In this document: positions 30,688-57,780 of the stretch, one piece after another
How positions within the stretch are numbered: position 1 is the first letter of the stretch
Layout of the letters: each line of letters begins with the position of its first letter
Origin: Stenotrophomonas lactitubi
Lineage (GTDB): Bacteria; Pseudomonadota; Gammaproteobacteria; Xanthomonadales; Xanthomonadaceae
Length of the DNA stretch: 64,000 nt
NCBI RefSeq assembly: GCF_002803515.1
Contig: NZ_PHQX01000001.1
Coordinates: 1,302,001-1,366,000 of the forward strand
Direction: 5' to 3'
Made by a program: the position numbers and the translations under genes
The notes under the pieces: generated by a model
The model's input: only the letters and a program-made list of their open reading frames with translations
What the model was told of the DNA's origin: nothing
Databases searched by the model: none

Positions 30688-31062
30688 ATGACCGGCGAGC
30701 GCCGCGGCCCCAAGGTGGCCAGGGAAATGGCCCTGCCACCCAACACCCCGACAGTCATGCTCGCGGTGCTGCAACGAGTCGGTGCGCTCGAACGCAAAGT
30801 GCGCGCGCTGGAGAAGCAGCAGGCGGCTGCTACCGCTCCCGCTCCGGTTCGGGCTCCTGCGCCTGCTCCGCCTTCTTACGACCCAGGACCCGTTCACGCG
30901 CCACCATCGCCTGAAGAACCGTCGATTCGGCTTCAAGCAGCTGCTGCAGGATCCGCTCGCACGAAGGGTCGTGGGCTGCGCTGGCGCTTCTGTCGCGCAT
31001 TCCTTGGATGGCGCGGCGAATCATTCCGAGCAACAGCTTCAAGTTGGGATGACTGCCAATGA
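30688..31062 (+). CDS. Small coiled-coil protein (overlaps a minus-strand gene)
   Basis: A 124-residue protein starting MTGERRGPKVAREMALPPNT, with a coiled coil (QRVGALERKVRALEKQQAAA) and then a Pro/Ala-rich stretch. The last third overlaps the minus-strand frame 30830-31162 and looks poorly constrained. The first 60 residues look genuine. Confidence 0.45.
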   Translation: MTGERRGPKVAREMALPPNTPTVMLAVLQRVGALERKVRALEKQQAAATAPAPVRAPAPAPPSYDPGPVHAPPSPEEPSIRLQAAAAGSARTKGRGLRWRFCRAFLGWRGESFRATASSWDDCQ

Positions 31063-31162
31063 GCGCCGTGATCGTCCACTTCTGCGCTTCGTGGGCATCT
31101 TCCAAGGCTGCGATGCGTTCGTCGTACTTGGCGAAGCGATCTTCGATTTCAGCGGGGGTCAT
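30830..31162 (-). CDS. Small coiled-coil protein on the opposite strand
   Basis: A 110-residue protein starting MTPAEIEDRFAKYDERIAAL, helical throughout, with a charged tail (EPEPERER). GGAAG precedes its ATG. It repeats the arrangement of 30250-30609: minus strand, tail to tail with a plus-strand gene, and about 230 bases of overlap. Confidence 0.58.
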   Translation of the reverse strand: MTPAEIEDRFAKYDERIAALEDAHEAQKWTITALIGSHPNLKLLLGMIRRAIQGMRDRSASAAHDPSCERILQQLLEAESTVLQAMVARERVLGRKKAEQAQEPEPERER

Positions 31163-31254
31163 ACGGTCTTCCAGGGGAGGCTGAGAGCTCCCGATTCTGC
31201 CATCCGTTCAGAAGTTTGTCTGCGCGTAAATTGCACCCCTTTTGCGCGCATTTT

Positions 31255-31282
31255 GCACATATCTCGCACATATCTCGCACAC
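31255..31282. repeat. 11-bp tandem repeat in front of the replication genes
   Basis: GCACATATCTC occurs twice head to tail (31255-31265, 31266-31276) and starts a third time. Just upstream are related blocks (TTGCACC, TTTTGCGCGCA). One repeat per helical turn, 55 bases before the next start codon, suggests binding sites for an activator or repressor. Confidence 0.55.
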
Positions 31283-31336
31283 GGCGCGCGCTGCATCTAC
31301 CTGTATCGCGCGGCTATCAAAACCCCGAGGACTCCC

Positions 31337-31861
31337 ATGCCCTGGATTGAAGAAACCTGGTTGCAGGACGCTCTGGCCGCTCTGAAGGCGACCTGTGACG
31401 TCGACGCCCACACCCGCAACGAAATGATCCAGTTCCTCCTGGACAACGGCTTCTGGGACAAGGAGAAGCTGAAGGACTGGGCCAGCGCGGTTGCCAAGTT
31501 CAACAGCTGCCTCAACCCGAACAAGGCCGAGTTCTTCAAGATCGGCGAGCTGTGGGCACTCATGCGTCGATTTGATCGCCACCAGCTCTTCCTGGCCATG
31601 GCCGCCGACCTCGGCTACGAGGTGCGCGCCATTCCGACGGAGCAACGCCGGCAGCAGCTGCTGCAGCAGCTGCTCGATGCACAGCTGCAGTGCGCGGTGA
31701 CGGCGGAGCGTGTCTCCAGCCAGTTGGAACGCCTCAATACGCCAGCGCCGGAGCCGCGCCAAGGTGCCATCCATGGACAGGTTCGTGCGCAGTTCAGCAG
31801 CCCCAACGAATGGACCGCGCCTAGCAGGGCAAACGCCGTCGTCATGGTGGGCTGCCCGTAA
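31337..31861 (+). CDS. Hypothetical early phage protein
   Basis: A 174-residue protein starting MPWIEETWLQDALAALKATC, with GAGG upstream. The first 110 residues look like a compact helical domain with several Trp. A Gln/Leu-rich coiled-coil segment follows (RRQQLLQQLLDAQLQ) and then a disordered tail. It precedes the O-like gene by 17 bases; a regulatory (CII-like) or replication accessory role is possible but unproven. Confidence 0.62.
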   Translation: MPWIEETWLQDALAALKATCDVDAHTRNEMIQFLLDNGFWDKEKLKDWASAVAKFNSCLNPNKAEFFKIGELWALMRRFDRHQLFLAMAADLGYEVRAIPTEQRRQQLLQQLLDAQLQCAVTAERVSSQLERLNTPAPEPRQGAIHGQVRAQFSSPNEWTAPSRANAVVMVGCP

Positions 31862-31878
31862 CGGGATAGGCCTGCGCA

Positions 31879-32925
31879 ATGAGCAACGAAATCACGAAGC
31901 TCTGCTGGCCACTGCAGATGCCACCGCCCGCAAAGGCGGTGCTGATGGCGATTGCGTGGCATGCAGATGACTTCGGCATGGCCTTTCCGGGCCTCACCAC
32001 GCTGATCGAGAAGACCTGCCTGAGCAAGACAGCACTGCTCAGCGCGATCGCGTGGCTGGAAGACAACCAGGTGCTGACCATTCGCCGCGGCGGCAGTGAT
32101 GCCGGCGGCACCAAGTACAGCAACCGGTACAGCCTCAACCTTGGCCGTCTGGACAAGAACGCGTTCGCGTCGAAGCCGCGGCGCGCATCTAAACCGGTTC
32201 GCCAGACGGACCGGTCCGAGAACGTCGAAGGTGCTGACCGGTCCGCCACACACACCGGTACGGATGCCGAACCGGTCCGCGACACGGACTGGTCGGATGA
32301 GACTGAAGACGCCGACCGGTACGCGGGAAACACCGGTACGCAAGAACGACCGGTACGTCTCGCGAACTCGACCGGTACGTCTGACGGACCTGACCGGTCC
32401 GTCTCACGTACTCAACCGGTACGCGAGACGGACCCTAAAGGTCATGAAAGATCAGTAAAGGTCATTGAATCGTCAAACGCGCAAGCACGCGACGACGAAG
32501 CGGTGATGCCGCAGCTCAGCGCCGACGAGGTCGATCGCGAGCTGATGGGCATCCCCCGTTTGCCGCCGGGTCTGGACCCGCAAGTCCTGGCCAGGTTCGT
32601 GCGGCACCGCCGCGTGCTGGGCAAGCCGATGACGATCAGCAGCTGGTTGGAGCTGCAGCCGCGGTTCCGCCAGCTCACGGCCGACGGCCACGACCTCAAC
32701 CGTTCCCTGCGCCAGACGATGGCTGCAGGCCTGGCACTGCCCGTAACACCGAAACCCGAGGGGACCGATCATGCCAACAATTCAGGCTCTGCTGCCGAAC
32801 GAGTCCGACGTCGAGCAGAAAAGGACGAGCTCCGTGACGCCGCTGCAGAGGCAGACGCAGCCGCCGGCGCAGCAGGCGCCCTTGACGGCCCGGGCTACGC
32901 GAACGCTGTGGGTGCGCATGGCTGA
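31879..32925 (+). CDS. O-like phage replication initiator with internal iterons
   Basis: A 348-residue protein. The N-terminal 90 residues form a winged helix of the phage-replication O type (PPAKAVLMAIAWHADDFGMA, LTTLIEKTCLSKTALLSAI). A repetitive hydrophilic linker (about 105-195) is encoded by the iteron array. A C-terminal domain (IPRLPPGLDPQVLARFVRHR, SSWLELQPRFRQL) and an acidic Ala-rich tail follow. By analogy with lambda O, the N-terminus would bind the iterons in its own gene and the C-terminus would recruit the P-like loader encoded next. Its last 155 bases overlap the P-like gene in another frame. Confidence 0.78.
   Translation: MSNEITKLCWPLQMPPPAKAVLMAIAWHADDFGMAFPGLTTLIEKTCLSKTALLSAIAWLEDNQVLTIRRGGSDAGGTKYSNRYSLNLGRLDKNAFASKPRRASKPVRQTDRSENVEGADRSATHTGTDAEPVRDTDWSDETEDADRYAGNTGTQERPVRLANSTGTSDGPDRSVSRTQPVRETDPKGHERSVKVIESSNAQARDDEAVMPQLSADEVDRELMGIPRLPPGLDPQVLARFVRHRRVLGKPMTISSWLELQPRFRQLTADGHDLNRSLRQTMAAGLALPVTPKPEGTDHANNSGSAAERVRRRAEKDELRDAAAEADAAAGAAGALDGPGYANAVGAHG
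32193..32420. repeat. Array of 12 ACCGGT-centred iterons (candidate phage origin)
   Basis: ACCGGT starts at 32193, 32210, 32237, 32254, 32271, 32315, 32332, 32349, 32371, 32393 and 32415, and a variant ACTGGT at 32288. Spacings are 17, 27, 17, 17, 17, 27, 17, 17, 22, 22, 22. Most copies continue as ACCGGTMCG, and the last four are near-identical 22-mers (ACCGGTACGTCTSRCG...). The fixed spacing inside an O-like gene closely parallels lambda ori. Confidence 0.8.
32436..32465. repeat. Direct repeat TAAAGGTCAT in AT-richer segment beside the iterons
   Basis: TAAAGGTCAT at 32436-32445 and 32456-32465, exactly 20 bp apart, in a stretch clearly richer in A/T than its surroundings. This is where lambda has its AT-rich unwinding region. 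Confidence 0.55.
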
Positions 32926-33472
32926 GATCTACGGGTACCGCTGGACCAGCGCCTACGGTGAGGATCCCAGTGGCGGCGCGGCCGCGACGTGGGCGAAGGG
33001 GCTTGCCGGGCTCACCGGTGAGCAGCTGGCCGCTGGCCTGGGGTCGAGCATCGCCTCGGCTGACCCATGGCCACCAACCCTGCCGGAATTCCGCCTGCGC
33101 TGCCTCGGTGTGCCGAGCTTCGCCGCGGTTCGCAACGACACCGGCCGCCGGGATGGCTTCACGCGCCTGGTGTGGCAGTACCTGGACGGTCACCGGTACC
33201 GCACCTCGAGCGCGGACAAGAGCGACCGCCTGCTGCGCGAGGCCTACGACCAGGCACGCGAGTACGTGATGCGCGGCGGGAGGCTGCCGGAAGAGCCAGT
33301 AGCGGTGCTCGGCCAGGCCGCAGCGTCGCCGCCGGTACCGGCCAGTCCTGAAGCCCTGCGTCGTGCTGAGCGGGAGATCGCGGAGATCTTCGGCAAGGGA
33401 TCCGCAGAGCCTGGCAACGACGACCATCCGCCGGCGACGGGCAAGATGGCTGCTGCAGGGCTGGACCGATGA
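32771..33472 (+). CDS. P-like phage replication protein (helicase loader type)
   Basis: A 233-residue protein with the lambda-P-family core (WVRMAEIYGYRWTSAYGEDP, LAGLTGEQLAAGL, WPPTLPEFRLRC), which is thought to deliver the host DnaB helicase to the O-bound origin. The ATG at 32771 follows GAGGGGA and lies inside the O-like gene; a later ATG at 32918 would remove the overlap and still keep the conserved part. Confidence 0.78.
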   Translation: MPTIQALLPNESDVEQKRTSSVTPLQRQTQPPAQQAPLTARATRTLWVRMAEIYGYRWTSAYGEDPSGGAAATWAKGLAGLTGEQLAAGLGSSIASADPWPPTLPEFRLRCLGVPSFAAVRNDTGRRDGFTRLVWQYLDGHRYRTSSADKSDRLLREAYDQAREYVMRGGRLPEEPVAVLGQAAASPPVPASPEALRRAEREIAEIFGKGSAEPGNDDHPPATGKMAAAGLDR

Positions 33473-34014
33473 TCGACCCGGACCAGCTGCGCAACTACCA
33501 CCGCCAGCAGGTGCTGTACGCCCTGCAACAAGGCGGTGAGCCGATGACTGCCTCGGAAGTGCATGAAGGCATGACCACCCTGGCCCTGGCCATGGGCCAT
33601 CCCAGGGAGTGTGCAGCGATCACACCGGCGGCGGTGGCCGGCATCCTGCGCGGCATGCTCGGCGAGGTCCTTGTCGTCCAGGGCGAGGATAGACAGAACC
33701 CGAGGTACGGCCGTGGGGAACCGACGTGGACTGCTGTCGCGGGCCTGGCGCGCGTGGAGCGACCACTGGCACCTGGCACGCGAGCCGTTGGAGCTGGCGA
33801 TTCTGTCGCGGCGCAGCCCCTGCCGGCGCAACACCAGTTCCGTCAGATCACCGTGGACCAGCGGCTGGCATTCCTGCAGGCCGAGTGCAAAATCCTGCTC
33901 GCCGATATCGCACGCGACTACACCGCGTTCGAGCAGCGTGTCCGCGTTCAGATCTCCGCGTTCGAGCAGCGTGCCGCGCGACTGTTGAACCAGGGCGAGG
34001 ACGCTGGCGCATGA
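33469..34014 (+). CDS. Hypothetical early phage protein
   Basis: A 181-residue protein starting MIDPDQLRNYHRQQVLYALQ. The first 90 residues suggest a winged helix (EPMTASEVHEGMTT, AAVAGILRGMLG). The C-terminus is a coiled coil with the near repeat AFEQRVRVQIS / AFEQRAARLL. ATGA overlaps at both ends. Confidence 0.62.
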   Translation: MIDPDQLRNYHRQQVLYALQQGGEPMTASEVHEGMTTLALAMGHPRECAAITPAAVAGILRGMLGEVLVVQGEDRQNPRYGRGEPTWTAVAGLARVERPLAPGTRAVGAGDSVAAQPLPAQHQFRQITVDQRLAFLQAECKILLADIARDYTAFEQRVRVQISAFEQRAARLLNQGEDAGA

Positions 34015-41542: not shown

Positions 41543-41746
41543 ATGGCAGCACGGCGTCCGCTCGTCCTCGATGCGAGCAACCGCACCAGGGAGCTGCCCG
41601 CCGGTGACATCTTGGTCGGTGTTCCGCTGCAGCTCGCGATTGGGCTCCGGGCTGGCGGGGTGTTCAACGTCGCCCTGACCTCGACCTACGAGATGGCGAT
41701 TGGCCTGCGGGCTGGCGGCACGTTCAACGTACAGGCGACGACCTGA
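41543..41746 (+). CDS. Small protein with internal repeat
   Basis: A 67-residue protein. The unit AIGLRAGG-x-FNV occurs twice in the second half (residues about 32-43 and 52-63). The N-terminus (RRPLVLDASNRTRELPAGD) resembles that of the following fibre protein (IPLILNQATARIEELAAAD), suggesting a shared attachment module. Confidence 0.6.
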   Translation: MAARRPLVLDASNRTRELPAGDILVGVPLQLAIGLRAGGVFNVALTSTYEMAIGLRAGGTFNVQATT

Positions 41747-42831
41747 TGGCTACTCGAATTCCACTGATCCTCAACCAAGCTACGGCCCGTATCGAGGAAC
41801 TCGCTGCGGCGGATACGTTGCCCGGATCGGCAGTTTCCGGGTTTCTTGGAAAAAATCGGCTCATCAACGGGAACATTGCATTCACTCAGCGTGGCAATAG
41901 CGGCACCGTGCAAAACGCAGCGGTATACACCGCCGACCGTTGGCGATGCTCTGCTGTTGGCGGCTCCGCAAGTAATTGGGGGGTCGGTGGGCATGCAGTC
42001 GGCGAAGTTCCTGACGCTACCCGATACCTCGGCTTCAATGTTGTTTCTGGAACTACTTCGGCATGGATCGGTCAGCACATCGAAGGTGTCGAAACCCTCG
42101 CAGGCCGAGAAGTTACGATTTCTTTCTACATGCGAAGCAACGTGGCTGGGAAAAGAGTAGGCGTTACCTGCCAGCAGATTTTCGGAACCGCAGGCTCTTC
42201 GCTTACGAATGTGGATGGAGGGATTGTCACGCTCGGCACCGCGTTCCAAAAGTTCTCAGTAACGCTCACCCTCCCATCTATCGCGGGCAAGACTATTGGA
42301 ACCAACAGCAACGTATTGCTGGTGTTTTGGCTTTGCGATACCACTGCCCACGGCGGGCAGTTGGCGGGCCAAATTGGACTGTTTGAGATTTCAAGCATGC
42401 AGCTTGAAGAAGGCGCGACGGCTACTGCCTTCGAGATGCGCTCTCAGGCTTTGGAACTTCTCCTGTGCCAGCGCTACTACCAAAAGTCGTTCCCTGTAGC
42501 AGAAGCCCCGGCCAACAATAGCTTGACTTGCCTTCACCGCCCCGCTGTCAGTTTCGCAACAACTGCTATGCGCGCCAGTATTTGTTTCCCGACAACTATG
42601 CGCGCGCCCCCAACTTTGCGCTTCTTCATGGGTGCGGAAGTTTCAGGTGGTCTTGCAGGCCGCTGGGGGTACTACAACCCGGCCGCAAGTAGTTGGCTCT
42701 CTTCTACAAATGCACCAAGTGTCGTACAAGTCACCGACAGTGGTTTTATTGTGGATATTGAAGGTAGTGGATTGGCGAATCCATCCTCTTACATCATTAC
42801 CGGCCAGTACACAGCAGATGCAGAGATTTAA
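41746..42831 (+). CDS. Tail fibre / receptor-binding protein
   Basis: A 361-residue protein. A short N-terminal anchor is followed by KNRLINGNIAFTQRG and YTADRWRC, a motif common at the start of phage fibre lectin-like domains, then a jelly-roll-like region (REVTISFYMRSNVAGKR, IGLFEISSMQLEEGATATAF) and a variable tip. The gene is visibly less GC-rich than its neighbours, as expected for a recently exchanged host-range determinant. Confidence 0.72.
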   Translation: MATRIPLILNQATARIEELAAADTLPGSAVSGFLGKNRLINGNIAFTQRGNSGTVQNAAVYTADRWRCSAVGGSASNWGVGGHAVGEVPDATRYLGFNVVSGTTSAWIGQHIEGVETLAGREVTISFYMRSNVAGKRVGVTCQQIFGTAGSSLTNVDGGIVTLGTAFQKFSVTLTLPSIAGKTIGTNSNVLLVFWLCDTTAHGGQLAGQIGLFEISSMQLEEGATATAFEMRSQALELLLCQRYYQKSFPVAEAPANNSLTCLHRPAVSFATTAMRASICFPTTMRAPPTLRFFMGAEVSGGLAGRWGYYNPAASSWLSSTNAPSVVQVTDSGFIVDIEGSGLANPSSYIITGQYTADAEI

Positions 42832-43297
42832 TGTGTACCAGCTGACTAAAAATCCTGATGTTCTCTACTGTGTGGAAACTGACACTTTCATTTCGCGCGG
42901 CCATTACTTGTGGCCGACCGAATGGCTGGAGTCGAACACACCGCTGCCGGTTCTTCCACCCTATGAGCCGAACACACCAGCCCACCATCGCGCCATCCGC
43001 GACGCAGCATGGGCGTGGATGACAGGCGTGGTTGTTGAGCGCGGTTACGACAGCATCGAGAGCTGCGTTGGCTACTTCAACAGCGGCGTGGAGCGGTACC
43101 GGCTGGAGGCGCGGGCCATGGTGGCATGGCGCGACGCGGTCAACGAGAAACTGGTGGCGCTGGTGCTAGATCCGCCAGCCGGGGTCGTGACCTGGGATCA
43201 GGTGCGCCCGTTGCTGCCGCAACCGTCCCAGTTCAATTGGCCGTCCAGCGTAGAGCTCCCGCTCGGGGTAGATGACGGCCCTGCAGTTCAGCTTTGA
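42818..43297 (+). CDS. Tail-fibre assembly (chaperone-like) protein
   Basis: A 159-residue protein, start overlapping the fibre gene by 14 bases. The C-terminal half (EARAMVAWRDAVNEKLVALV, then TWDQVRPLLPQPSQFNWP) has the pattern of fibre-assembly proteins encoded directly after fibre genes. The N-terminal part (VYQLTKNPDVLYCVETDTF) may bind the variable tip. Confidence 0.65.
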   Translation: MQRFNVYQLTKNPDVLYCVETDTFISRGHYLWPTEWLESNTPLPVLPPYEPNTPAHHRAIRDAAWAWMTGVVVERGYDSIESCVGYFNSGVERYRLEARAMVAWRDAVNEKLVALVLDPPAGVVTWDQVRPLLPQPSQFNWPSSVELPLGVDDGPAVQL

Positions 43298-43321
43298 TCC
43301 AACCTGAGAGGAACCCAGCCA

Positions 43322-43930
43322 GTGGCCGGAAAGATTGACCCGGCGACGGGGCTGCAGGACCAGCAACGGCGGTTCGCGGACGAGTACCTGGTCGACTTCA
43401 ATGGCACCGCGGCCTACATGCGCGCCGGTTACAAGGCCACCGGCGCCGCGGCCAGCGCCGCCGCCGCGAGGCTGTTGGCCAACGCCAAGGTGCAGGCCTA
43501 TCTGGCCAGCAGGAAGGAAGAGTTGCTGCTGTCGCAGCGGGTCGACCAGGAAGCGGTGCTGGCTCGCTTGGCATTCATGGCTCTGGGCGACATCCGGACC
43601 CTCTTCGACCAGCACGGCAACCTGAAGCCAATGAGCGAGCTCACGGTCGAAGAGGCCAGCCTGGTCCAGGGCGTGGAGGTGTTCGAAGAGTGGGAGGGAC
43701 GGGGCGACGAGCGCCGCGCAGTCGGGCTGACCAAGAAGATCAAGCTGGTCAGCCGCCTCGATGCGGTGAAGACCCTGGGCACGCATTTCGGCATGTTTGC
43801 CAAGAAAGTCGAGCACACCGGCAAGAACGGCGGCCCGATCGAGAGCCAGACGCGGATCCTGGGCGATGTGATGGATCTCATCGATGGATCCGACACCGGC
43901 CCCGGGCCTTCGAGCTCGCGGAGCAAGTAA
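43322..43930 (+). CDS. terS: Terminase small subunit
   Basis: A 202-residue protein of the terminase_2 family: LQDQQRRFADEYLVDFNGTA, the helix-turn-helix KATGAAASAAAARLLANAKV and the central RLAFMALGDIRTLF. It selects phage DNA and presents it to the large subunit. GTG start; three bases separate it from terL. Confidence 0.88.
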   Translation: MAGKIDPATGLQDQQRRFADEYLVDFNGTAAYMRAGYKATGAAASAAAARLLANAKVQAYLASRKEELLLSQRVDQEAVLARLAFMALGDIRTLFDQHGNLKPMSELTVEEASLVQGVEVFEEWEGRGDERRAVGLTKKIKLVSRLDAVKTLGTHFGMFAKKVEHTGKNGGPIESQTRILGDVMDLIDGSDTGPGPSSSRSK

Positions 43931-43933
43931 GCC

Positions 43934-45487
43934 GTGGAGGAACTGAGCGACCAGGACGCCAGCCGAATCATTGAGAAGCTGGGTGATCGGTGGTGGCGGC
44001 TGAACAACCTGTACTACATCACCGACAAGTTCGGTCGACGGGTGCAGTTCAAGCTGAACGAGGTGCAGGCCGATCTCGACGACAACCTGCACACGTTGAA
44101 CCTGGCGCTGAAGTCGCGCCAGCACGGCATCACGACCTGGGCCTGCATCCGTGCCCTGGACATGGCGCTGTTCAAGAAGAACACGAAGGCCGGTGTGGTC
44201 GCACACACCGCCGGCGATGCCGCCAAGTTCTTCCGTAGCAAGGTGCTGTACGCCTATGACAACCTGCCGGACTGGCTGAAGAAGATCCGGCCGGCAGTCA
44301 GGCGCGACATGCGCGATGGCGTCCTGGAGCTGGCGAACGGCTCCAGCATCGAGGTCTCCGTGTCCCATCGCGGTGGCACGCTGACCTTCCTGCACATCTC
44401 CGAGTACGGGCCGATGTGCGCCATGTATCCGGAGCGGGCAGGGGAGGTGGCATCAGGTGCACTGAATGCGATCGCCTCCGGCAACATCGTGGTGATCGAG
44501 TCGACCGCCTATGGCGCCGCCGGCGACTTCTACGAGCGCTGCCAGACGGCGATCGAGCTGGACCGACAGATCCGGGCCGGCACCGCCAAGCTGACCACGA
44601 TGGACTACCGCTTCCACTTCTATCCGTGGTTCCGGGATCCCATCAACGAGCTCGACCCGGACGGTGTCACGCTCACGGCCGAAGACGAGGCCTACTTCGC
44701 CAAGGTCGAGGCGGAGATGAACTACACGCTGCGGCCTGAGCAGAAGGCCTGGTACGTCAAGAAGGCGGCCGAGCAGCGCGACAAGATGAAGCGGGAGCAC
44801 CCCAGCACGCCGGAAGAGGCCTTCCAGGCGAGCACTGAGGGTGCGTACTACGGCAAGGAGATGGCCGCCGCCGACAGCAGCGGGCGGATCACCGATCTCC
44901 CGATAAACCCGCAGGTGCCCATCCACACCTTCTGGGACATCGGGCGCAGCGATGCGACGAGCATCTGGTTCATGCAGGAGAACGGGCCCTGGCTGGACTT
45001 CGTCGACTTCTACGAAAACTCGGGCTTCGGCGTGGCGCACTACGCAAAGGTGCTGAAGGAGCGCGGCTACCTATACGGCAAGCACTACTGGCCGCATGAC
45101 GGCGCCAACGAGGACTGGTCGGCCAACGAGAACCGCGTGCAGGTGGCCGGCAAGCTGGGGGTCAAGCCAGTTGTCGTCGTGCCTCGGATCAACGACATCA
45201 CCGAGGGCATCGACATGGTCCGCAACATGTTGCCGCGCTGCAGGTTCGACAGGGTTCGCTGCGGTCCGCCCAAGGCGGGCGAGGGCCGAGGCGGGCTGGA
45301 AGCCCTGCGCCGTTACACCAAGGTCTGGAACGACAAGACGGAAACGTACTCCGACCTCCCATTCCACAACTGGGCCAGCAATCCCGCCGACGCGATCCGG
45401 CAGGCGGCTCAGGGCTACGTCAGCAGCAGCGGCCGTCGCGTCGGCGAGTCGCGCGGCACGGCCAACGACAACTGGAGAACTGCATGA
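43934..45487 (+). CDS. terL: Terminase large subunit
   Basis: A 517-residue packaging motor. ATPase: atypical Walker A LALKSRQHGITT (57-68) and Walker B with catalytic Glu (FLHISEYG, Glu157). The nuclease domain starts with HTFWDIGRSDATS (Asp335). The packaging type (cos or headful) cannot be judged from this alone. GTG start after GCC; the 3' end overlaps the next ATG. Confidence 0.9.
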   Translation: MEELSDQDASRIIEKLGDRWWRLNNLYYITDKFGRRVQFKLNEVQADLDDNLHTLNLALKSRQHGITTWACIRALDMALFKKNTKAGVVAHTAGDAAKFFRSKVLYAYDNLPDWLKKIRPAVRRDMRDGVLELANGSSIEVSVSHRGGTLTFLHISEYGPMCAMYPERAGEVASGALNAIASGNIVVIESTAYGAAGDFYERCQTAIELDRQIRAGTAKLTTMDYRFHFYPWFRDPINELDPDGVTLTAEDEAYFAKVEAEMNYTLRPEQKAWYVKKAAEQRDKMKREHPSTPEEAFQASTEGAYYGKEMAAADSSGRITDLPINPQVPIHTFWDIGRSDATSIWFMQENGPWLDFVDFYENSGFGVAHYAKVLKERGYLYGKHYWPHDGANEDWSANENRVQVAGKLGVKPVVVVPRINDITEGIDMVRNMLPRCRFDRVRCGPPKAGEGRGGLEALRRYTKVWNDKTETYSDLPFHNWASNPADAIRQAAQGYVSSSGRRVGESRGTANDNWRTA

Positions 45488-45762
45488 ACGTTTCCCCGCG
45501 CGAGCGGAACACCCCCACGGCGGTCGAGCTGGTCGACCTGCTGTCATTGCTGGTCGCTGCCGCAGACGAGGGGCAGCTGGTCAGCATTGCATTCATGCTG
45601 CGCTCGCCGTCCGGCGACACGATGGTCGACTACCGGGGCAGCCACGAGATGAGCGAGCTGACGGCCCGAACGGTCCTGCAGCGCATTGCCCAGGACGTAG
45701 CGGGCACCCATCCGGCGATCGCCGCCCAGATTCACTCCGATCTCGGTAGGAAGGCGAACTGA
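45484..45762 (+). CDS. Hypothetical protein between terminase and portal
   Basis: A 92-residue protein (MNVSPRERNTPTAVELVDLL...), mixed alpha/beta, ATGA-coupled to terL. No domain recognised. Confidence 0.58.
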   Translation: MNVSPRERNTPTAVELVDLLSLLVAAADEGQLVSIAFMLRSPSGDTMVDYRGSHEMSELTARTVLQRIAQDVAGTHPAIAAQIHSDLGRKAN

Positions 45763-45763
45763 C

Positions 45764-45952
45764 GTGAAGAATCGCACGGTCGAGCAGCTGGCCATCCACC
45801 TGCAGCAGGCCCGCAGCTACGCGCGCTACCTGCCAGGTGGCGAGAACCACGGCACCGTTGTCGAGGACCATGTCCTGTCGCCCGACCAGGCCGTCGCGGC
45901 GGTAGTGGAAGAACTCGACGCCGCGCTGGCGCTGCTGGGAGCGGAAGCATGA
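45764..45952 (+). CDS. Small helical protein between terminase and portal
   Basis: A 62-residue helical protein starting MKNRTVEQLAIHLQQARSYA, GTG start, coupled by ATGA to the next gene. Function unknown. Confidence 0.55.
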   Translation: MKNRTVEQLAIHLQQARSYARYLPGGENHGTVVEDHVLSPDQAVAAVVEELDAALALLGAEA

Positions 45953-46422
45953 GCGTCGAGGTCGAGCTCGCACCGGATGGCTTCGTGTGGTGCGGCAAGA
46001 AGGGGGATCTCACCCTCTACCTGACCCACATCGTGCGCGACGGCGACGACGATGCCGCCCTCTACATCCGCAACGAGAACCGCCGGGTCGAGGGCGTGAA
46101 CCCGGTGACCGGGGCGATCGCCTACGGCAGCCCGGCCTACCTGGTGCCGTTCCGCGACTTCTGGATCTTCCGGCCGGAAGACAAGGACCGTGGCCGGCAT
46201 CACCACATCGGCGACATGGTTGCCCGCCTGCAGAACGCCTCGGTCGCGCTCTATGGCCTGGACGTTCCTGCATACCGGCACCGCATCCACGACGCCATCC
46301 TCGAATTCTGCGACGACGTAAAGAACCTTCGCCCGCCGGCGGAGCAAAGCCGCGAGCAGTGGCTTGGCGGGATGGCCAGCATGGGGATCCAGATCAAGAT
46401 CAACGGGCAGAAGGTGAACTGA
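45949..46422 (+). CDS. Hypothetical protein upstream of portal
   Basis: A 157-residue protein starting MSVEVELAPDGFVWCGKKGD, with a beta-rich front and helical back. No domain recognised; conserved position before the portal suggests a packaging or head role. Confidence 0.6.
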   Translation: MSVEVELAPDGFVWCGKKGDLTLYLTHIVRDGDDDAALYIRNENRRVEGVNPVTGAIAYGSPAYLVPFRDFWIFRPEDKDRGRHHHIGDMVARLQNASVALYGLDVPAYRHRIHDAILEFCDDVKNLRPPAEQSREQWLGGMASMGIQIKINGQKVN

Positions 46423-48593
46423 TGCAGACGATCGAGAACTTGCGCAGCGAGCCGGCCTACGACCCTGGTGCTGCAGACGTGGCCACCGCGGCTCCGCCCG
46501 ACGTGGAAGGCCACTCGCTCGACAGCCTGGAGAACCGCCGTCTCCACGCGAAGGTGCTGGACTACTGGTACACCGCCCTCGATGCGTTCTACGACAACCG
46601 CATCGAGCAGATGCTCGACTATGACTTCTACGACCACATCCAGTGGTCGGAAGAAGACCGGGCGGTGCTGGCAGCCCGGCACCAGGCGCCGCTGACCTAC
46701 AACAAGATCAAGATGGCCATTGACTGGGTCATTGGCACCGAGCGTCGCACCAGGATCGACGGGGTGGTGCATCCGCGAGCCGAGGACGATGTCGATATCG
46801 CCGCGGTCAAGTCGGAGCTGATGAAGTACCTCAGCGACACCAACCGCGTGCCCTGGGCGCGCAGCCAGGCTTTCAAGGACGCCGCGATCGCCGGCTGCGG
46901 GTGGACCGAGGAATCGATCCGGACGGACCGCGCTGAAGAGCCGGTGATGATCGGGCATATTCCCTGGCGGCAGATGCGTCGCGACCCGGTAAGCCGCGCC
47001 CTCGATCTGAGCGATTGCCGCTTCCTGCTGCGGGAGAAGTTCGCAGATCTGGACTATGCGGAGGCCATGTTCCCCGACCGGGTCGAGCTGGTGAATCGAG
47101 CGGCCCAAGACCACTACGACGGCGACAATGGTGCGTTCGACGAGGAACTGGACCTGCCGCAGGTGTTCCGCCGCTACGACAGTCGCGGTCACACGGTCAC
47201 CGGCCGACGCATCACGGGCCGTGCGTCCCTGGACAGCCGTTGCCGGCTGCGGGTACGCCTGATTGAGTGCTGGTTCAAACGCCCCGTAGCGCATAAGCGG
47301 CTGTGGGGTGGCGAGTACCGCGGCGATCGCTTCGACCCTAGCAACGCCCAGCACCAGCAGGCGCTGGCGGCGATGAAGAGCGAAGCTGCGCCGGTCTACT
47401 CCCTGTCCGACGCCGTGGTCGAGGAAATGTGGTGCGCGATCTTCACCGAGGGCGGACTGCTGCAGCTCAAGCGCAGCCCGTTCCGACATGGGAAGTTCCC
47501 CTACACCCCGTACTGGTGCTATCGCCGCAACCGGGACGGCATGGAGTACGGCCTGGTCCGCGGTGTGCGCGACTCGCAGGAAGATCTGAACAAGCGGATG
47601 AGCAAGCTGTTGTGGGCCCTGAGCACTAACCAGCTGTTCTATGAGGATGGCGCCATCGATGAGGACCGCATCGAGGAAGTGAAGCGCGAGATCGCCAAGC
47701 CCAACGGTGTGATTGCACTGAACAATGGCGGTCTGAAAAAAATCAAGGTGGAGCGAAACCTCGATGTGGCAGAGGCGCAGATCCAGCTGCTCGAGTTGGA
47801 CGCCGCTCACATCCACGACGGTACCGGCGTGAACCGCGAGCTGTTGGGCCGCGAGACCAACGCGGCCAGCGGCCGGGCGATCCTTGCCAAGCAGCAGGAA
47901 GGTGCGGTGGGAACAGCAGAGCTGTTCGACAATTACCGCTTGGGGATCCAGCTCAGCGGTGAAAAGCAGCTGTCGCTGACCGAGCAGTTCATGACCGAGG
48001 AACGGCAGTTCCGGATCGTCGGCGAACGCAAGGGTCTGGACTGGCGTGTGATCAACCAGCTGCGCCTGGACACGCTCAACAACGTCTGGGTGGTCGACAA
48101 CGACATCAGCCGCAACCAGGCCGACTTCATCGTGGACCAGCAGGACTTCCGCGAATCCATGCGCCAGGCTTTCGCCGAGCAGTTCTTCGACATGCTGGGC
48201 AAGCTGCCCCCGGATATGTCCATCCAGCTGCTGGACCTCGCTTTCGACATGATCGACATGCCCGGCAAGGACGAGGTCGTGCAACGAATCCGGAAGATCA
48301 CCGGCCAGTCGGACAACGACCAGGATGTCGACAGTCCCGAGGCGCAGGCCCGCCAACAGCAGGAATCGCAGGAGCGAGACGTGACCCTGCGCGAGCGCAT
48401 GGCGAAAGTGGGCCTGGATGAAGCCAAACGCGAAGAGGTCATGGCCAAGGCCAAGGCCCTTCAGATCAAGACCAAGGGCGACGCGCTGAACGTTGCCGAG
48501 CTGATCGAGCTCCTGCTCCCCCTCGCTCCGGCGGCAGACCGCCTCCTGAGCACCCAACAGCCCCCAGAGGAAACCGCTCATGCAGCAGCCTGA
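46422..48593 (+). CDS. Portal protein, P22-like
   Basis: A 723-residue protein, the right size for P22-type portals. Recognisable parts: NKIKMAIDWVIGTERRTRID (wing/stem region), AGCGWTEESIRTD, FRHGKFPYTPYWCYRRNRDG, and a long helical C-terminal barrel (LRERMAKVGLDEAKREEVMA). Twelve copies form the DNA entry ring at the head vertex and dock the terminase. Start at 46422 in a TGATG junction. Confidence 0.87.
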   Translation: MQTIENLRSEPAYDPGAADVATAAPPDVEGHSLDSLENRRLHAKVLDYWYTALDAFYDNRIEQMLDYDFYDHIQWSEEDRAVLAARHQAPLTYNKIKMAIDWVIGTERRTRIDGVVHPRAEDDVDIAAVKSELMKYLSDTNRVPWARSQAFKDAAIAGCGWTEESIRTDRAEEPVMIGHIPWRQMRRDPVSRALDLSDCRFLLREKFADLDYAEAMFPDRVELVNRAAQDHYDGDNGAFDEELDLPQVFRRYDSRGHTVTGRRITGRASLDSRCRLRVRLIECWFKRPVAHKRLWGGEYRGDRFDPSNAQHQQALAAMKSEAAPVYSLSDAVVEEMWCAIFTEGGLLQLKRSPFRHGKFPYTPYWCYRRNRDGMEYGLVRGVRDSQEDLNKRMSKLLWALSTNQLFYEDGAIDEDRIEEVKREIAKPNGVIALNNGGLKKIKVERNLDVAEAQIQLLELDAAHIHDGTGVNRELLGRETNAASGRAILAKQQEGAVGTAELFDNYRLGIQLSGEKQLSLTEQFMTEERQFRIVGERKGLDWRVINQLRLDTLNNVWVVDNDISRNQADFIVDQQDFRESMRQAFAEQFFDMLGKLPPDMSIQLLDLAFDMIDMPGKDEVVQRIRKITGQSDNDQDVDSPEAQARQQQESQERDVTLRERMAKVGLDEAKREEVMAKAKALQIKTKGDALNVAELIELLLPLAPAADRLLSTQQPPEETAHAAA

Positions 48594-49548
48594 CAACGCG
48601 GGCCAGCAGTCGCTGGCAGCGAACGAACTGGAAATGACCGAGGGCGAGCGCGCGGCGCTTGCCAGCGCTGACGAGACCACCCCCGGCGCCGCAGCCGCGG
48701 CAACCGGCGCGGCCGAGCCGGCCGCCGCCGCTGGCGGTGCAGCGACGCCGGCAGCTGACGCCTCAGCTGCTGCCGCTCCCGTTGAAGGAGCGACCCCGCC
48801 TGATGCGGCAGCCGCTGCAGAAGGTGCGCCTGCAGCACCGGCTGCAGTATCCGAGCCGGCGCCTGCGACGCCGTTCGTTCCCACGTACGCGGCCGACGAG
48901 CGCGACTACGGCAAGGAAATCGGGGACATCAACGGCAAGCTGCAGGCCCTGAAGGAGAAGTACAAGGCCGGCGACGTCGAGGACGAAGCCTACGAGCAGC
49001 AGTACGAGGATCTGCGAGACGAGCGCAGCCGCGTCGAGCGTGCCCAGGACATGGCCACCCTGCAGCAGCAGATGAGCCAGCAGAACGCCGACCAGTCCTG
49101 GGCGTACCTGCAGCGCCAGTTCCTCTCCCGCCCGGAGAACGCCGGCATTGCCGCCAGCCCGATGCGCTTCGCCGCGTGGGAGCAGGCCATGCAGAGCGTG
49201 GTAAACGAAGCCGCCGCTGCAGGGCGGCAGGTCACCGACTGGGACATCCTGGCTGGCGCGCGGGATCTGCTGGTGAGCGAGGGCCTGCTGCAGGCCTCGA
49301 CCGCCGCGACCGCGCCGCCCGTGGCGCAGCCGCCGGCGAAGCCGGATCGTGCCGCACCGCTGGGCGCTGTCCCGGCTACCCTGAGTACCGTGCCCGCCGC
49401 TGCCGACCCGACCTCCCGATCGACGGCTGACGCCGCTGCCGGCATGGACAACATCGAGGACATCGAGTCGTTCCTGGCCGGCAAGTCGGAGAGCGAACGC
49501 GATCGCATCCTGCGTGACGTGCCCGGTTCCTTCGTGGCGGACAACTGA
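48580..49548 (+). CDS. Scaffolding protein
   Basis: A 322-residue protein with an Ala/Pro-rich disordered N-terminal 95 residues, a charged coiled coil (GDINGKLQALKEKYKAGDVE, DLRDERSRVERAQDM), and another disordered stretch before a short acidic end. Composition and position between portal and capsid fit an internal scaffold. Confidence 0.75.
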   Translation: MQQPDNAGQQSLAANELEMTEGERAALASADETTPGAAAAATGAAEPAAAAGGAATPAADASAAAAPVEGATPPDAAAAAEGAPAAPAAVSEPAPATPFVPTYAADERDYGKEIGDINGKLQALKEKYKAGDVEDEAYEQQYEDLRDERSRVERAQDMATLQQQMSQQNADQSWAYLQRQFLSRPENAGIAASPMRFAAWEQAMQSVVNEAAAAGRQVTDWDILAGARDLLVSEGLLQASTAATAPPVAQPPAKPDRAAPLGAVPATLSTVPAAADPTSRSTADAAAGMDNIEDIESFLAGKSESERDRILRDVPGSFVADN

Positions 49549-49553
49549 GCCCC

Positions 49554-49769
49554 ATGCCCAAGCTGCACACCACCTTGGAGCCCGGCGACGTGGTCCTGAT
49601 CCCCTCCGGGTCGGGTGCGTCGATCACCTTCACCGAGAAGAGCGGCAAACGCTCGCGGGTGATCATCGAATCCAACACGCCGGTGACCATCACCCGAGCC
49701 GGTGAGCAGCAACCAACTGGCGGCGCGCTGCAGCGAGTAGCGCGTCGGCCAACGCCCACAACGGGCTGA
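49554..49769 (+). CDS. Small beta protein next to capsid gene
   Basis: A 71-residue, probably beta-rich protein (MPKLHTTLEPGDVVLIPSGS...) with a disordered tail. It may be a minor head component. No family recognised. Confidence 0.55.
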   Translation: MPKLHTTLEPGDVVLIPSGSGASITFTEKSGKRSRVIIESNTPVTITRAGEQQPTGGALQRVARRPTPTTG

Positions 49770-49847
49770 ACATCCTCAAAAACCTGCGCAGTAGTGCGGG
49801 TCAACGACAGAGGCGCAGAAGTGCCGTGATCTCCCTGGAGAAGCAAC

Positions 49848-50957
49848 ATGGCACAGACGATCGTGGGTCTGAACGACCCGAAGGCCCGGAAGCTGTGGTC
49901 CGCGGACCTCATGGTTTCGGTATCCAAACAGTCCTACTGGACGCGCAAGATGATGGGCAAGGGGTCGGAGACCTCGATGCCGGTGATGCTGCAGACCGAC
50001 CTGGAGCAGGAAGCCGGCGACACCATCAGCTACGACCTTTCCGTGCAGCTGACCGGTGGCGTCATCGAAGGCGACCAGAAGGCCGAGGGCAGGGGCGAGA
50101 AGCTCGACTTCTTCACCGACAAGGTCTTCATCGACCAGGCCCGCAAGCCGGTCAGCTGCGGTGGCCGTATGAGCCGCAAGCGCACCGTTCACGACCTGCG
50201 CAAGGTCGGCCGCAACCGCCTGACCGAGTTCTGGGCGCGCTTCTACGACGAGCTCTTCTTCATGTACGGCTCGGGCGCCCGCGGCATCAATGAGGACTAC
50301 AACGTCCCGCTGAACTACACCGGTCGTGCGGGCAACGCGTTCGAGGCACCGGACAGCTCGCACATCCTGTTCGGTGATGGCGCCAGCAAGGCTTCGCTGA
50401 CCTCGGCCGGCAAGATGAGCCGTGTCCTGATCGAGCGCGCCAATACCAAGGCGGCATCGCAGGGTGGCGGTTCGACCCAGGTGGCGGAGATCCAGCCGAT
50501 CACCATCGCCGGCGGCGAGCACTTCGTCACCGTCATGCACCCCTTCCAGGCGCATGACCTGAAGACCTCCACGGATCCGGGCAACTGGTTGGACATCCAG
50601 AAGGCTGCTGCAGCCTCCGAAGGTGCCAGCAACCCGATCTTCAAGGACAACCTGGGCATGATCGGCAACACGATCCTGCACAAGCACAAGTCCGTGGTGC
50701 GCTTCGGGGACTATGGTGCCGGCGGCAACGTCGCAGCGGCCCGCGCGCTGTTCCTTGGCCGCCAGGCCCTGGTGCTGGCCTTCGGTTCGCCGGGCAATGG
50801 ACTGCGCTTCGACTGGTCCGAGGTTCCGCTCGATCACGGCAACGACATCGAGATCTGCGCCGGCGCGATCTTCGGCATCAAGAAGACCCGCTTCAACGGT
50901 AAGGACTTCGGCACGATCGCCCTGGATACCGCCGCGGCCGATCCGAACCCGCAGTAA
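49848..50957 (+). CDS. Major capsid protein, N4-gp56 family
   Basis: A 369-residue HK97-fold capsid protein of the N4-gp56/DUF4043 type: KARKLWSADLMVSVSKQSYW, LTGGVIEGDQKAEGRGEKLD, FWARFYDELFFMYGSGARG, and the late HPFQAHDLKTSTDPGNWLDI. Its own ribosome-binding site GGAGAAGCAAC and the strong hairpin after the stop suit high expression. Confidence 0.9.
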   Translation: MAQTIVGLNDPKARKLWSADLMVSVSKQSYWTRKMMGKGSETSMPVMLQTDLEQEAGDTISYDLSVQLTGGVIEGDQKAEGRGEKLDFFTDKVFIDQARKPVSCGGRMSRKRTVHDLRKVGRNRLTEFWARFYDELFFMYGSGARGINEDYNVPLNYTGRAGNAFEAPDSSHILFGDGASKASLTSAGKMSRVLIERANTKAASQGGGSTQVAEIQPITIAGGEHFVTVMHPFQAHDLKTSTDPGNWLDIQKAAAASEGASNPIFKDNLGMIGNTILHKHKSVVRFGDYGAGGNVAAARALFLGRQALVLAFGSPGNGLRFDWSEVPLDHGNDIEICAGAIFGIKKTRFNGKDFGTIALDTAAADPNPQ

Positions 50958-50965
50958 ACGTCACT

Positions 50966-50995
50966 GCAGGAGCCCCGGCATGTCGGGGCTCCTGC
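50966..50995 (+). terminator. Strong hairpin after the capsid gene
   Basis: A stem of about 12 bp (GCAGGAGCCCCG / CGGGGCTCCTGC) with a six-base loop, nine bases after the capsid stop. It has no T-run, so it may stabilise capsid mRNA or cause partial attenuation. Confidence 0.55.
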
Positions 50996-51028
50996 GTTCA
51001 GAACCCACATCCTTCGCAGGAGAAATCC

Positions 51029-51475
51029 ATGTCCACGAAACTCGCAACTGGCCGCAACAGCGGCGCATCGTCGCCGGCCGCCGGCCTGGTGGTGGTCAAC
51101 GACTACAGCTGGCCCGTCGAGGCCGCCGCGGATGGCGACCTGGTGCTGATCGGTGAGCTGCCGGCCAACCACAAGCTGCACAGCCAGGGCTCGGGCCTGT
51201 TCGCCAAGCTGGACGCCGCCGACAAGCTGGCGGCCCAGAACGTCACCGTTTTCATTCCCGACGCAATCGACGGCGCATCGGCGGCCGGCAACACCGTCAT
51301 CGCCCCGACCGCGGTGGTTGCGGACACCGCGGCATTCACCCCGGTGGCCCTGCACCTGATCGCGGAGGCCCTGGGCTCCAAGCCGGTGAATCGTCCGGTT
51401 TACGTGAAGCTCAATACCGCCCCGGGTGCCCAGCAGGGCGAGCTGATCCTGCGCCTGGCCAGCTTCCCGGCCTGA
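51029..51475 (+). CDS. Head-associated (decoration-like) protein
   Basis: A 148-residue beta-rich protein directly after the capsid gene, starting MSTKLATGRNSGASSPAAGL, flanked by hairpins on both sides. Size, place and its own AGGAG site suggest a capsid decoration protein. Confidence 0.6.
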   Translation: MSTKLATGRNSGASSPAAGLVVVNDYSWPVEAAADGDLVLIGELPANHKLHSQGSGLFAKLDAADKLAAQNVTVFIPDAIDGASAAGNTVIAPTAVVADTAAFTPVALHLIAEALGSKPVNRPVYVKLNTAPGAQQGELILRLASFPA

Positions 51476-51488
51476 GCCCCCAACCGTA

Positions 51489-51512
51489 GCGGGGCTGCGG
51501 CTGCAGCCCCGC
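51489..51512 (+). terminator. Strong hairpin after the decoration-like gene
   Basis: A 10-bp perfect stem (GCGGGGCTGC / GCAGCCCCGC) with a four-base loop, just before the ribosome-binding site of the next gene; no T-run. Confidence 0.55.
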
Positions 51513-51528
51513 CTACCAGGAGCATCCA

Positions 51529-52083
51529 ATGCTGATTGCATGCAAATTCAAGCGTCCGAAGGCGCCTGTTGAGCTGGAAGGCACCGTGTATTTCTTCGTG
51601 CCGATTGATCCCGCCAATGCCGACTCGGAGCACGTCGCCGACATCGAAGACTCTGACCACATCCAGCGCCTGCTGGGCATTCCCGAGGCGTACTACATCG
51701 CCCGGGCACAGAGCCTGCAGACCGTCGCCAAGCCAGCACCGCCGACCGGCCAGGCCGCAGACCAGCTTCCGCCGCCGCCGGCAGGCGGCAGCATCGGTAC
51801 CGATGCCGGTGGCTCGGGCACTGATACCAGCACCAGCAGCACCAGCAGCAGCAGCGAGCCGCCGGCGGGCGCGAACGTCGCAGCTGCTCTGCCGCCGGAG
51901 ATCGTTGAAGCCGCGGCCCATCTGAACGGGTTGACCTGGCAGAAGCTGAAGGCCGAACTGGCCAAGGGTGGTATCGACAAGGTCGTCATCAAGGCCGCCC
52001 TCGACCTGGAACTGGCCAAGCCGGAACCCGACCAGCGCGGCACCACCCTGAAGGTGCTTGGCCAGGCGCTCGAGGAAGCCTGA
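51529..52083 (+). CDS. Head or connector protein with Ser/Thr-rich linker
   Basis: A 184-residue protein: a folded N-terminal domain (MLIACKFKRPKAPVELEGTV...), a low-complexity Pro/Gly/Ser/Thr linker (about 72-112, SGTDTSTSSTSSSSE), and a C-terminal helical part (LNGLTWQKLKAELAKGG) of the HeH/LEM-like type seen in some phage head proteins. Confidence 0.62.
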   Translation: MLIACKFKRPKAPVELEGTVYFFVPIDPANADSEHVADIEDSDHIQRLLGIPEAYYIARAQSLQTVAKPAPPTGQAADQLPPPPAGGSIGTDAGGSGTDTSTSSTSSSSEPPAGANVAAALPPEIVEAAAHLNGLTWQKLKAELAKGGIDKVVIKAALDLELAKPEPDQRGTTLKVLGQALEEA

Positions 52084-52084
52084 C

Positions 52085-52765
52085 GTGGAGGCGCGCACCC
52101 TCAGCCAATTGATCGAGGAATGCCGGGAAGAGCTCGACGACGACCGCGCTCCATATCTGTGGAGCAACGACGCGTTGACCCGGCACCTCAACGAAGCTGT
52201 GGAAGAGGCGTGCATTCGGGCGCGGTTGCTCGTGGAGAGTGGCCGCCCCGAAATCTGTCACATCAACCTGGAGCCCGGCCGGGCCGACTATCCGCTTCAT
52301 CCGACCGTTTACGTGATCCGACGTGCGGTGTTGGCCAGCAACCTGTCCGACCCACTCTGCAGGACCACCAGCGCCGCCCTGGATGGAAGGCATCACCACT
52401 GGCGCACTGAGGCAGGGTGCCCCGCGTACCTGGTGCGCGATCGACAGGCCCGCGAGGTGTCGGTGAGCCCGGTACCTACAGAGGTCGACGTCCTGCAGCT
52501 CACGCTGTGGCGCGTGCCGCAGGCAGCCGAGGCGATGGAGGACGGCGAGGACGAGCCGGTGATCGACGCCATCCATCACCGGAAGTTGGTGCACTGGGCC
52601 TGCTGGCGTGCCCTGAACAAGCGCGATTCCGAGCAACGGAGCACTGCGGACGCCGACCGCCACCTTGCACTGTTTGAGAGCTACTTCGGCGAGCGCCCGA
52701 CCGCGCGCGCGCTGCAGCAGCTGTCGATCGACCCCACCACCGGCACCCAACCCATGTGGTTCTGA
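52085..52765 (+). CDS. Head-tail adaptor protein (gp6/DUF6682-like)
   Basis: A 226-residue protein with the N-terminal pattern of podovirus adaptors (LSQLIEECREELDDDRAPYL, WSNDALTRHLNEAVEEACIR) and DAIHHRKLVHWACWRALNKR later on. It should form the ring below the portal. GTG start after GAGGAAGC. Confidence 0.7.
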   Translation: MEARTLSQLIEECREELDDDRAPYLWSNDALTRHLNEAVEEACIRARLLVESGRPEICHINLEPGRADYPLHPTVYVIRRAVLASNLSDPLCRTTSAALDGRHHHWRTEAGCPAYLVRDRQAREVSVSPVPTEVDVLQLTLWRVPQAAEAMEDGEDEPVIDAIHHRKLVHWACWRALNKRDSEQRSTADADRHLALFESYFGERPTARALQQLSIDPTTGTQPMWF

Positions 52766-52766
52766 C

Positions 52767-54080: not shown

Positions 54081-54083
54081 GCC

Positions 54084-54257
54084 ATGGCTGTGTTGGCCAA
54101 GCCGGACGACGTGAAACGTCGCCTGGAGATCTGCCGTGCCTGTCCGAACGCCGAACGGCTGGGACGTCGCCTTTTCCTGCGCTGCAGTCTCTGCAGCTGT
54201 CCCCTGGCAAGCAAGACCCGATTCCAAGGGGCTTCCTGCCCCGCGGGCAAATGGTAA
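54084..54257 (+). CDS. Zinc-finger mini-protein (DUF6171-like)
   Basis: A 57-residue protein starting MAVLAKPDDVKRRLEICRAC. Cys positions ICRAC, RCSLCSC and the end SCPAGKW match the pattern of small phage zinc-finger proteins (C-x2-C ... C-x2-C-x-C ... CPxGKW). It fits neatly between the neighbouring genes (three bases after one stop, 19 before the next start). Confidence 0.7.
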   Translation: MAVLAKPDDVKRRLEICRACPNAERLGRRLFLRCSLCSCPLASKTRFQGASCPAGKW

Positions 54258-54276
54258 CCACCGAAGGAGAAACCCG

Positions 54277-56810: not shown

Positions 56811-56818
56811 GAGCCTTC

Positions 56819-57292: not shown

Positions 57293-57308
57293 CGAAGGAA
57301 TAAGCACC

Positions 57309-57779: not shown

Positions 57780-57780
57780 C

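Follow-up and report, generated by a model that had tools for sequence, protein, structure and literature searches.

The question raised by this locus is whether a dense array of the hexamer ACCGGT, lying inside a phage-type replication gene of Stenotrophomonas lactitubi, is a replication origin, a binding array of another kind or a by-product of the encoded protein. The window, i.e. the whole 64-kb stretch of DNA that was analysed, belongs to a host assembly of 4.87 Mb, and two overlapping genes are central to the question.

31879..32925, + strand: O-like replication initiator gene, 348 aa (PHROG and Pfam matches, AlphaFold2 model)
32771..33472, + strand: P-like helicase-loader gene (phrog_109), overlapping the end of the O-like gene

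The O-like ORF matched PHROGs 391 (E 2e-15) and 678 (E 1.2e-12), 'replication initiation O-like', and its protein matched Pfam HTH_36 with 32.4 bits (cut-off 25). The neighbouring ORF matched phrog_109 (P-like helicase loader, E 2.7e-12) and, with a slightly better score, phrog_1524, which is of unknown function (E 7.6e-13). These PHROG matches bear out the O-like initiator and the adjacent P-like gene proposed in the initial annotation. Five of ten further ORFs in the window matched tail fibre, terminase, portal, major head or virion structural PHROG families, and the locus was therefore identified as a prophage; its structural genes of these kinds were located at 41746-59999 of the window. 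The named close homologues were from Stenotrophomonas, mostly S. maltophilia, and a scan of genome contigs gave one relative that was full-length and two that were N-terminal only. A reading of the region as an RNA element was dropped, as 31000-33600 gave no Rfam match at the gathering score.

Three repeat elements follow one another within the O-like gene.

32193..32314, + strand: upstream extension, with ACCGGT at 32193, 32210, 32237, 32254 and 32271 and a degenerate copy at 32288 (steps 17, 27, 17, 17, 17)
32315..32429, + strand: core iterons, with ACCGGT at 32315, 32332, 32349, 32371, 32393 and 32415 (steps 17-17-22-22-22)
32437..32475, + strand: four phased 8-mer direct repeats, AAAGGTCA, AAAGATCA, AAAGGTCA and AATCGTCA, at 32437, 32447, 32457 and 32468

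The eleven exact copies and the twelfth, ACTGGT at 32288, occupy 32193-32420 with spacings of 17,27,17,17,17,27,17,17,22,22,22, and the twelve-site array described initially was reproduced in position and spacing. As the copy at 32288 was degenerate in all 21 distinct close genes, eleven is nevertheless the safer copy count. The conserved context ACCGGTMCG, also claimed at first sight, was present in 10 of the 11 exact copies but not in the first, which reads ACCGGTTCG; NCG follows ACCGGT in all eleven. The last four copies had been called near-identical 22-mers, which was overstated: over 44 nt, the right-hand 22-bp units agree at 77-82% of positions. The 6 bp of ACCGGT are palindromic, and the iteron flanks are only partly symmetric.

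An extra ACCGGT is found at 32123, 70 bp upstream of the array, and the 64-kb window has 37 copies compared with 14.0 expected, a number reached in none of 100 shuffles. Codon shuffling of the O-like gene (20,000 shuffles) never gave more than four ACCGGT per 231-bp stretch, against the 11 observed. All five matches to ACCGGTMCG-N(2-10)-ACCGGT in the 4.87-Mb assembly were inside the array; the reversed control pattern had eight matches, so the assembly-wide count proves nothing by itself and only the clustering is informative.

The array is wholly within an ORF, and the protein linker that it encodes has recurring PVR, DRS and TGT tripeptides, as would be expected if the array were a by-product of a repetitive linker. 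Such a coding repeat is scarcely credible here. Neither 17 nor 22 is divisible by three, and the hexamer is therefore translated in each of the three codon phases, giving PVR, DRS or TGT. This pattern refutes the coding repeat as a sole explanation; the right-hand repeats of relatives are likewise read in different codon phases. In 20,000 synonymous resamplings with local codon usage, the mean number of ACCGGT was 1.13 and the maximum was 6, so that the observed 11 was never reached. The array is therefore a DNA element and not a coding repeat. Close relatives (21 distinct genes from 23 loci, including the window) gave evidence of the same kind. Variable columns accounted for 10 of 72 in the 6-bp cores of the array copies, 74 of 159 in the rest of the array region and 180 of 816 in the rest of the gene. 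Within the array region, first and second codon positions were variable at 47 of 106 columns outside the cores, against 8 of 48 inside. Of the fourfold sites with fixed codon starts, 1 of 10 varied in the cores, 8 of 18 elsewhere in the array and 54 of 124 in the remainder of the gene, contrasts that are weak because of the small counts (Fisher p 0.098 and 0.047). A conserved protein that had lost its DNA repeat would have argued for a coding repeat; the opposite was observed in the 21 genes, where the DNA sites are retained and the protein sequence of the linker is variable.

The AlphaFold2 model of the O-like protein (18 sequences, mean pLDDT 62, pTM 0.31) gave the following features.

Residues 1-90 (approximately): winged-helix N-terminal domain
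32023..32064, + strand: predicted recognition helix, residues 50-62 (stretch of residues 49-62, SKTALLSAIAWLED)
Residues 96-208: predicted disordered linker
Residues 213-290 (approximately): helical C-terminal domain
Residues 305-334: long low-confidence helix

In ten-residue blocks, pLDDT was 73-92 across residues 1-90 (except for 50 at 71-80), 28-44 from residue 101 to 210 and 82-90 from 211 to 290. Comparison of the whole-chain fold with the PDB found weak winged-helix-type matches only, none with E ≤ 0.001, and the sequence profile touched the chromosome replication initiation protein 2vn2_A (E 0.00077). The iteron array and the right-hand repeats are both encoded within the predicted disordered linker, in agreement with the initial placement of the repeats in the initiator linker, and predicted disorder is a further argument against a coding repeat.

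The step pattern of the core was compared across two sets of O-like genes. Set 1 consisted of 51 clusters from 119 genes (106 loci and 13 named phages, lambda included); one scan behind it kept the best 80 of 85. Set 2, seeded with Pseudomonas-type proteins that are members of set 1, consisted of 37 clusters from 80 loci, the best 80 of at least 580 relatives (at least 600 stretches). Duplicates (L006-L026), a gene cut by the record end (L144) and loci without a matching ORF of 150 aa were left out. The template was formed by six 9-mers at the core steps, each step ±1 base, with a maximum score of 54, and the limit for set 1 was a score above 43, the largest of 1,275 codon shuffles.

Thirty-three of the 51 set 1 clusters, i.e. 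the cluster of the window and 32 further ones, scored above every shuffle. An earlier limit, the gene's own shuffles plus one, had given 39 of 51 with lambda, compared with 33 of 51 without lambda under the common limit; the Mantel test and the set 1 count of right-hand repeats are still based on the 39 clusters. These steps can be put in ten orders, and 17-17-22-22-22 scored at least as well as any other in 30 of the 33 passing clusters, outscoring all the others in 26. The iteron word differs among these clusters, as 22 of the 33 do not have ACCNGT in most copies, and in six clusters all six 9-mers are the same (CACCCCCGC in Pseudomonas phages TC7 and PotUPM1, ACCGGTGCA in L101, among others). 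In set 2, all 37 clusters were above their own 555 shuffles (largest score 42) and 33 were above the set 1 limit of 43; no other step order scored higher in 34, and in 32 of these every other order scored lower, and steps of 18-18-21-21-23 were present in 25. Nine of the 37 share more than 15% of their 12-mers with a set 1 gene, and the other 28, with little DNA in common with set 1, all exceeded 42, with 24 exceeding 43.

Two steps of 16-18 bp and then three of 21-23 bp come to 99-101 bp in 66 of 70 clusters. A template-free search also recovered these lengths: 67 of the 235 steps in significant arrays were of 17 bp and 92 were of 21-23 bp, while the distribution in shuffles was roughly flat. 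The expectation that spacing would be kept in relatives while codons vary was checked across the close genes and the other O-like clusters, and was supported. Site number and a self-complementary core had initially been taken as marks of a distinct architecture. Neither mark was upheld, as some lambdoid phages have six iterons and the lambda iterons are themselves imperfect inverted repeats, according to the available text of two papers (PMC7466680, PMC5043065). Judged by sequence comparison, the distinct feature is the conserved pattern of two short and three long steps.

Among the 18 set 1 clusters that fail, 11 contain some other repeat chain that exceeds their 6 shuffles, and the remaining 7 lack one; the other chains include steps of 16,16,16,16,23 in L119 and 18,18,21,24 in L130. 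In the failing cluster L127 (genome G198), the O-like gene carries eleven copies of the GGGGTGA type, with 17-19 bp for six of the ten steps, which makes it another extended array. Thirteen control genes were also searched: seven had a chain longer than those of 10 shuffles, and six, lambda included, did not.

Distances between genes at residues 49-55, the first seven of the recognition helix, were correlated with their iteron-word distances (r 0.65) in 68 of 76 genes, the other 8 being left out because their N-terminal domain was not alignable. A partial Mantel test allowing for the rest of the domain gave r 0.47 (p 0.0005), with labels permuted and shared ancestry still included. The best single position was 52 (TC7 numbering), in the helix, followed by 29, 75 and 74, outside it. 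Among the individual pairings, SERAVQ (15 genes) was found 10 times with ACCCCCGCA and 5 times with ATnGCGCACC words, SERAVR with ACCCCGGCA in L098 and PP9W2, SKRAVI with ACCGGTGCA (2 of 2 genes) and GRTAV with ACCnGTCCG or AGTCCG-like words; the helix of the window, SKTALLS, goes with ACCGGTMCG. A simple Q-to-R helix rule was tried and rejected: it fails in the MS.RAVR group, and SERAVQ itself occurs with two kinds of word, so the rule is only a lead. In these comparisons, changes of iteron word tend to accompany changes in the recognition helix, to a greater extent than the rest of the domain would explain.

This tendency bears on whether the array is bound by another protein, such as host DnaA, a phage repressor or a partition protein. 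An ACCGGT palindrome could be read by many regulators, but binding by such a protein is very unlikely, given that the word tends to follow the recognition helix of the initiator itself and that the geometry was absent from 263 other ORFs (200-500 aa) at these loci, none of which reached a score of 44 (highest 42). The DnaA-box consensus is TTWTNCACA. With up to one mismatch, there were 15 such sites in the window compared with 25 expected, the nearest being at 31251 on the left and 33884 on the right, so that no DnaA-box-like site is found within 900 bp of the array. An iteron plasmid origin with DnaA boxes was rejected, there being no such site beside the iterons.

The initial account of the array had overlooked the second repeat element, to the right of the iterons. 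Its four copies start at offsets of +22, +32, +42 and +53 from the start of the last iteron, 10-11 bp apart, and identical offsets were found for the AACCGTCA-type copies of L052. In relatives, AACCGTCA-like 8-mers were found at about +22, +32, +42 to +44 and +53 to +58. At least two such 8-mers were present within 75 bp in 27 of 39 set 1 genes (lambda, among the 39, has none) and within 80 bp in all 37 set 2 genes, compared with a chance level of 0.04-0.66 per whole shuffled gene. The window has a single one-mismatch match to AACCGTCA, as its own repeats read AAAGGTCA and not the commoner AACCGTCA. The commonest forms in the 21 close genes were AAAGGTCA at three sites (19, 19 and 20 of 21) and AATCGTCA at the fourth (17 of 21). 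Three AAAGRTCA were obtained in none of 20,000 synonymous resamplings of the gene, and AAAGRTCA occurs nowhere else in the window. The 45 bp at 32431-32475 are 60% AT, compared with 36% for the whole gene; this AT richness is weaker than that of the corresponding stretch of lambda (70-85% in four 20-bp windows). From its composition and phasing, 32431-32475 is a probable unwinding element adjoining the core. A literature text search with AACCGTCA and two longer strings matched 662 papers and gave, among the matches listed, only matches to AACCGTCA, with unrelated titles. By eye, short A-rich direct repeats also adjoin the iterons in other O-like genes, for example ACAAAAGACAA in P22 and RCIP0034 and TAAAGACA in PAJU2 (L153-L155), and their GACA ending resembles the GTCA ending of the window repeats.

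The best reading of the sequence is an intragenic lambda-type origin, and the segment 32193-32475 is very probably where the prophage has its replication origin, inside the gene for its own initiator. Intragenic origins in O genes have long been known. The array has two parts, since the upstream six copies are a less conserved extension of the six-copy core: the core copies were ACCGGT in 124 of 126 copy-by-gene cells of the 21 close genes and the extension copies in 91 of 126, with 32288 in none of the 21. In a homologue with 60% identity (L050), the core steps are again 17-17-22-22-22, the first core copy reads ACCAGT, and upstream copies are also present. At least nine chained copies were found in only 4 of the 51 set 1 clusters. 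The weaker conservation of the upstream copies and the rarity of long chains would both suit a control array, in which initiator bound at these sites, and especially at the upstream six, serves mainly to limit initiation (by titration or pairing of origins) or to repress the O-P genes, while replication starts elsewhere. The available text of a study on six-iteron lambdoid phages (PMC7466680) can be cited on both sides, as the outer iterons were bound weakly, but mutation of the weakly bound iteron 1', which is absent from lambda, abolished plasmid transformation. Since, in addition, AT-richer phased repeats are found directly at the core, as an unwinding element would be, the control array is considered unlikely.

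An intragenic origin invites comparison with known systems. In phage lambda ori, as in the window, the iterons are mid-gene in O, with an AT-rich stretch directly to the right and the P gene next. Lambda has four annotated iterons with another word, and its template score of 43 equals the largest shuffle, so that it does not pass. The O-type initiator, the array between the initiator's domains, the AT-rich flank and the downstream P-type loader would place the array in the broad lambda-type class, whereas the steps of 20, 24 and 23 bp of the lambda subclass proper are not those of its 17-17-22-22-22 core. In the available text of PMC7466680, the Shiga-toxin-converting lambdoid phages P27 and 933W have six iterons in O, like the six of the window core; the four next to the AT-rich region were bound best and the two outer ones weakly, although the authors called these necessary, and the four one-face and two outer copies of the window core resemble this arrangement. 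Compared by description only, their iterons and O proteins are nearly those of lambda, unlike the window (PMC7466680). Gene 18 of P22, whose record marks a rep_origin inside it, and the O-like gene of HK225 have intragenic repeats like the window, but with steps unlike those of its core: 21,21,24,23 in P22 (5 copies compared with 4 in shuffles) and 21,21,21 in HK225 (4 copies, no more than shuffles reach). The oriL of SPP1, a phage of a Gram-positive host, has direct repeats and an AT-rich unwinding element inside the gene of the origin-binding protein (gene 38), and a helicase loader, a likeness drawn from description only in the available text (PMC6316719).

For the intragenic origin, the following mechanism can be proposed. 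The winged-helix domain of the O-like protein would bind the iterons, perhaps as dimers, as the geometry of the palindromic ACCGGT core might suggest. By analogy, the window core would be the O-some site. With 10.5 bp taken as one turn, a single face of the helix is shared to within 3 bp by the last four core copies, while the outer two are at 86 and 137 degrees from the centre of these four and hence not together on an opposite face. The four copies on the right, spaced by roughly two helical turns and hence nearly on one face, would build the O-some, and the two outer copies (17-bp steps), pointing to either side of that face, would help to wrap or strain the DNA. This strain would open the stretch of short repeats, and these may retain the initiator or the helicase on the open strand. 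The P-like protein would bring host DnaB, as P does according to the available text of PMC8508860. The upstream six copies probably add initiator-binding capacity, through strength or titration.

The results may extend beyond this prophage. In the accessible text of the non-subscription literature searched, no description of the step pattern, the phased right-hand repeats or the helix-word covariation was found; the available text of the MD8 paper (PMC8508860) mentions the lambda origin, and the terms 'iteron' and 'direct repeat' are absent from it. It seems somewhat more probable than the contrary that there is a large undescribed class of phage origins with a fixed geometry, in which the word has repeatedly been replaced as the recognition helix changed. 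The geometry, and not the word, would then be the conserved origin code, with two steps of 16-18 bp, three of 21-23 bp and up to four 8-mers about one helical turn apart; the helix-word pairs would be a winged-helix recognition code, and the 12-copy array of the window would be the core plus a lineage-specific doubling. If this is true, spacing could be used to locate origins in numerous temperate phages that infect Stenotrophomonas, Pseudomonas and their relatives, without a common word, dozens of natural variants would be available to test how iteron phasing drives strand opening, and a natural set of helix-to-site pairs would be on offer. One DNA stretch would serve two codes, with the disordered protein linker absorbing the constraint.

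Some minor observations were made in more distant phages. L143 and L149 (PseuP_224 and PP9W2) have the same origin geometry beside a DnaB-type helicase gene and not a P-type loader. Vibrio D290, BUCT708 and ST64B (L157, L158 and L161) have helix-turn-helix initiators and repeats with steps of mostly 21 and 24 bp, followed by GAACCAGTCA words, with a chain above shuffles only in ST64B (5 compared with 4). Copies of CCCCCGCAA with steps of 17, 17 and 22 are present in a helix-turn-helix gene of Sphingopyxis phage VSN-002 (L159), the host of which belongs to another class, so that part of the geometry reaches a phage of another host class.
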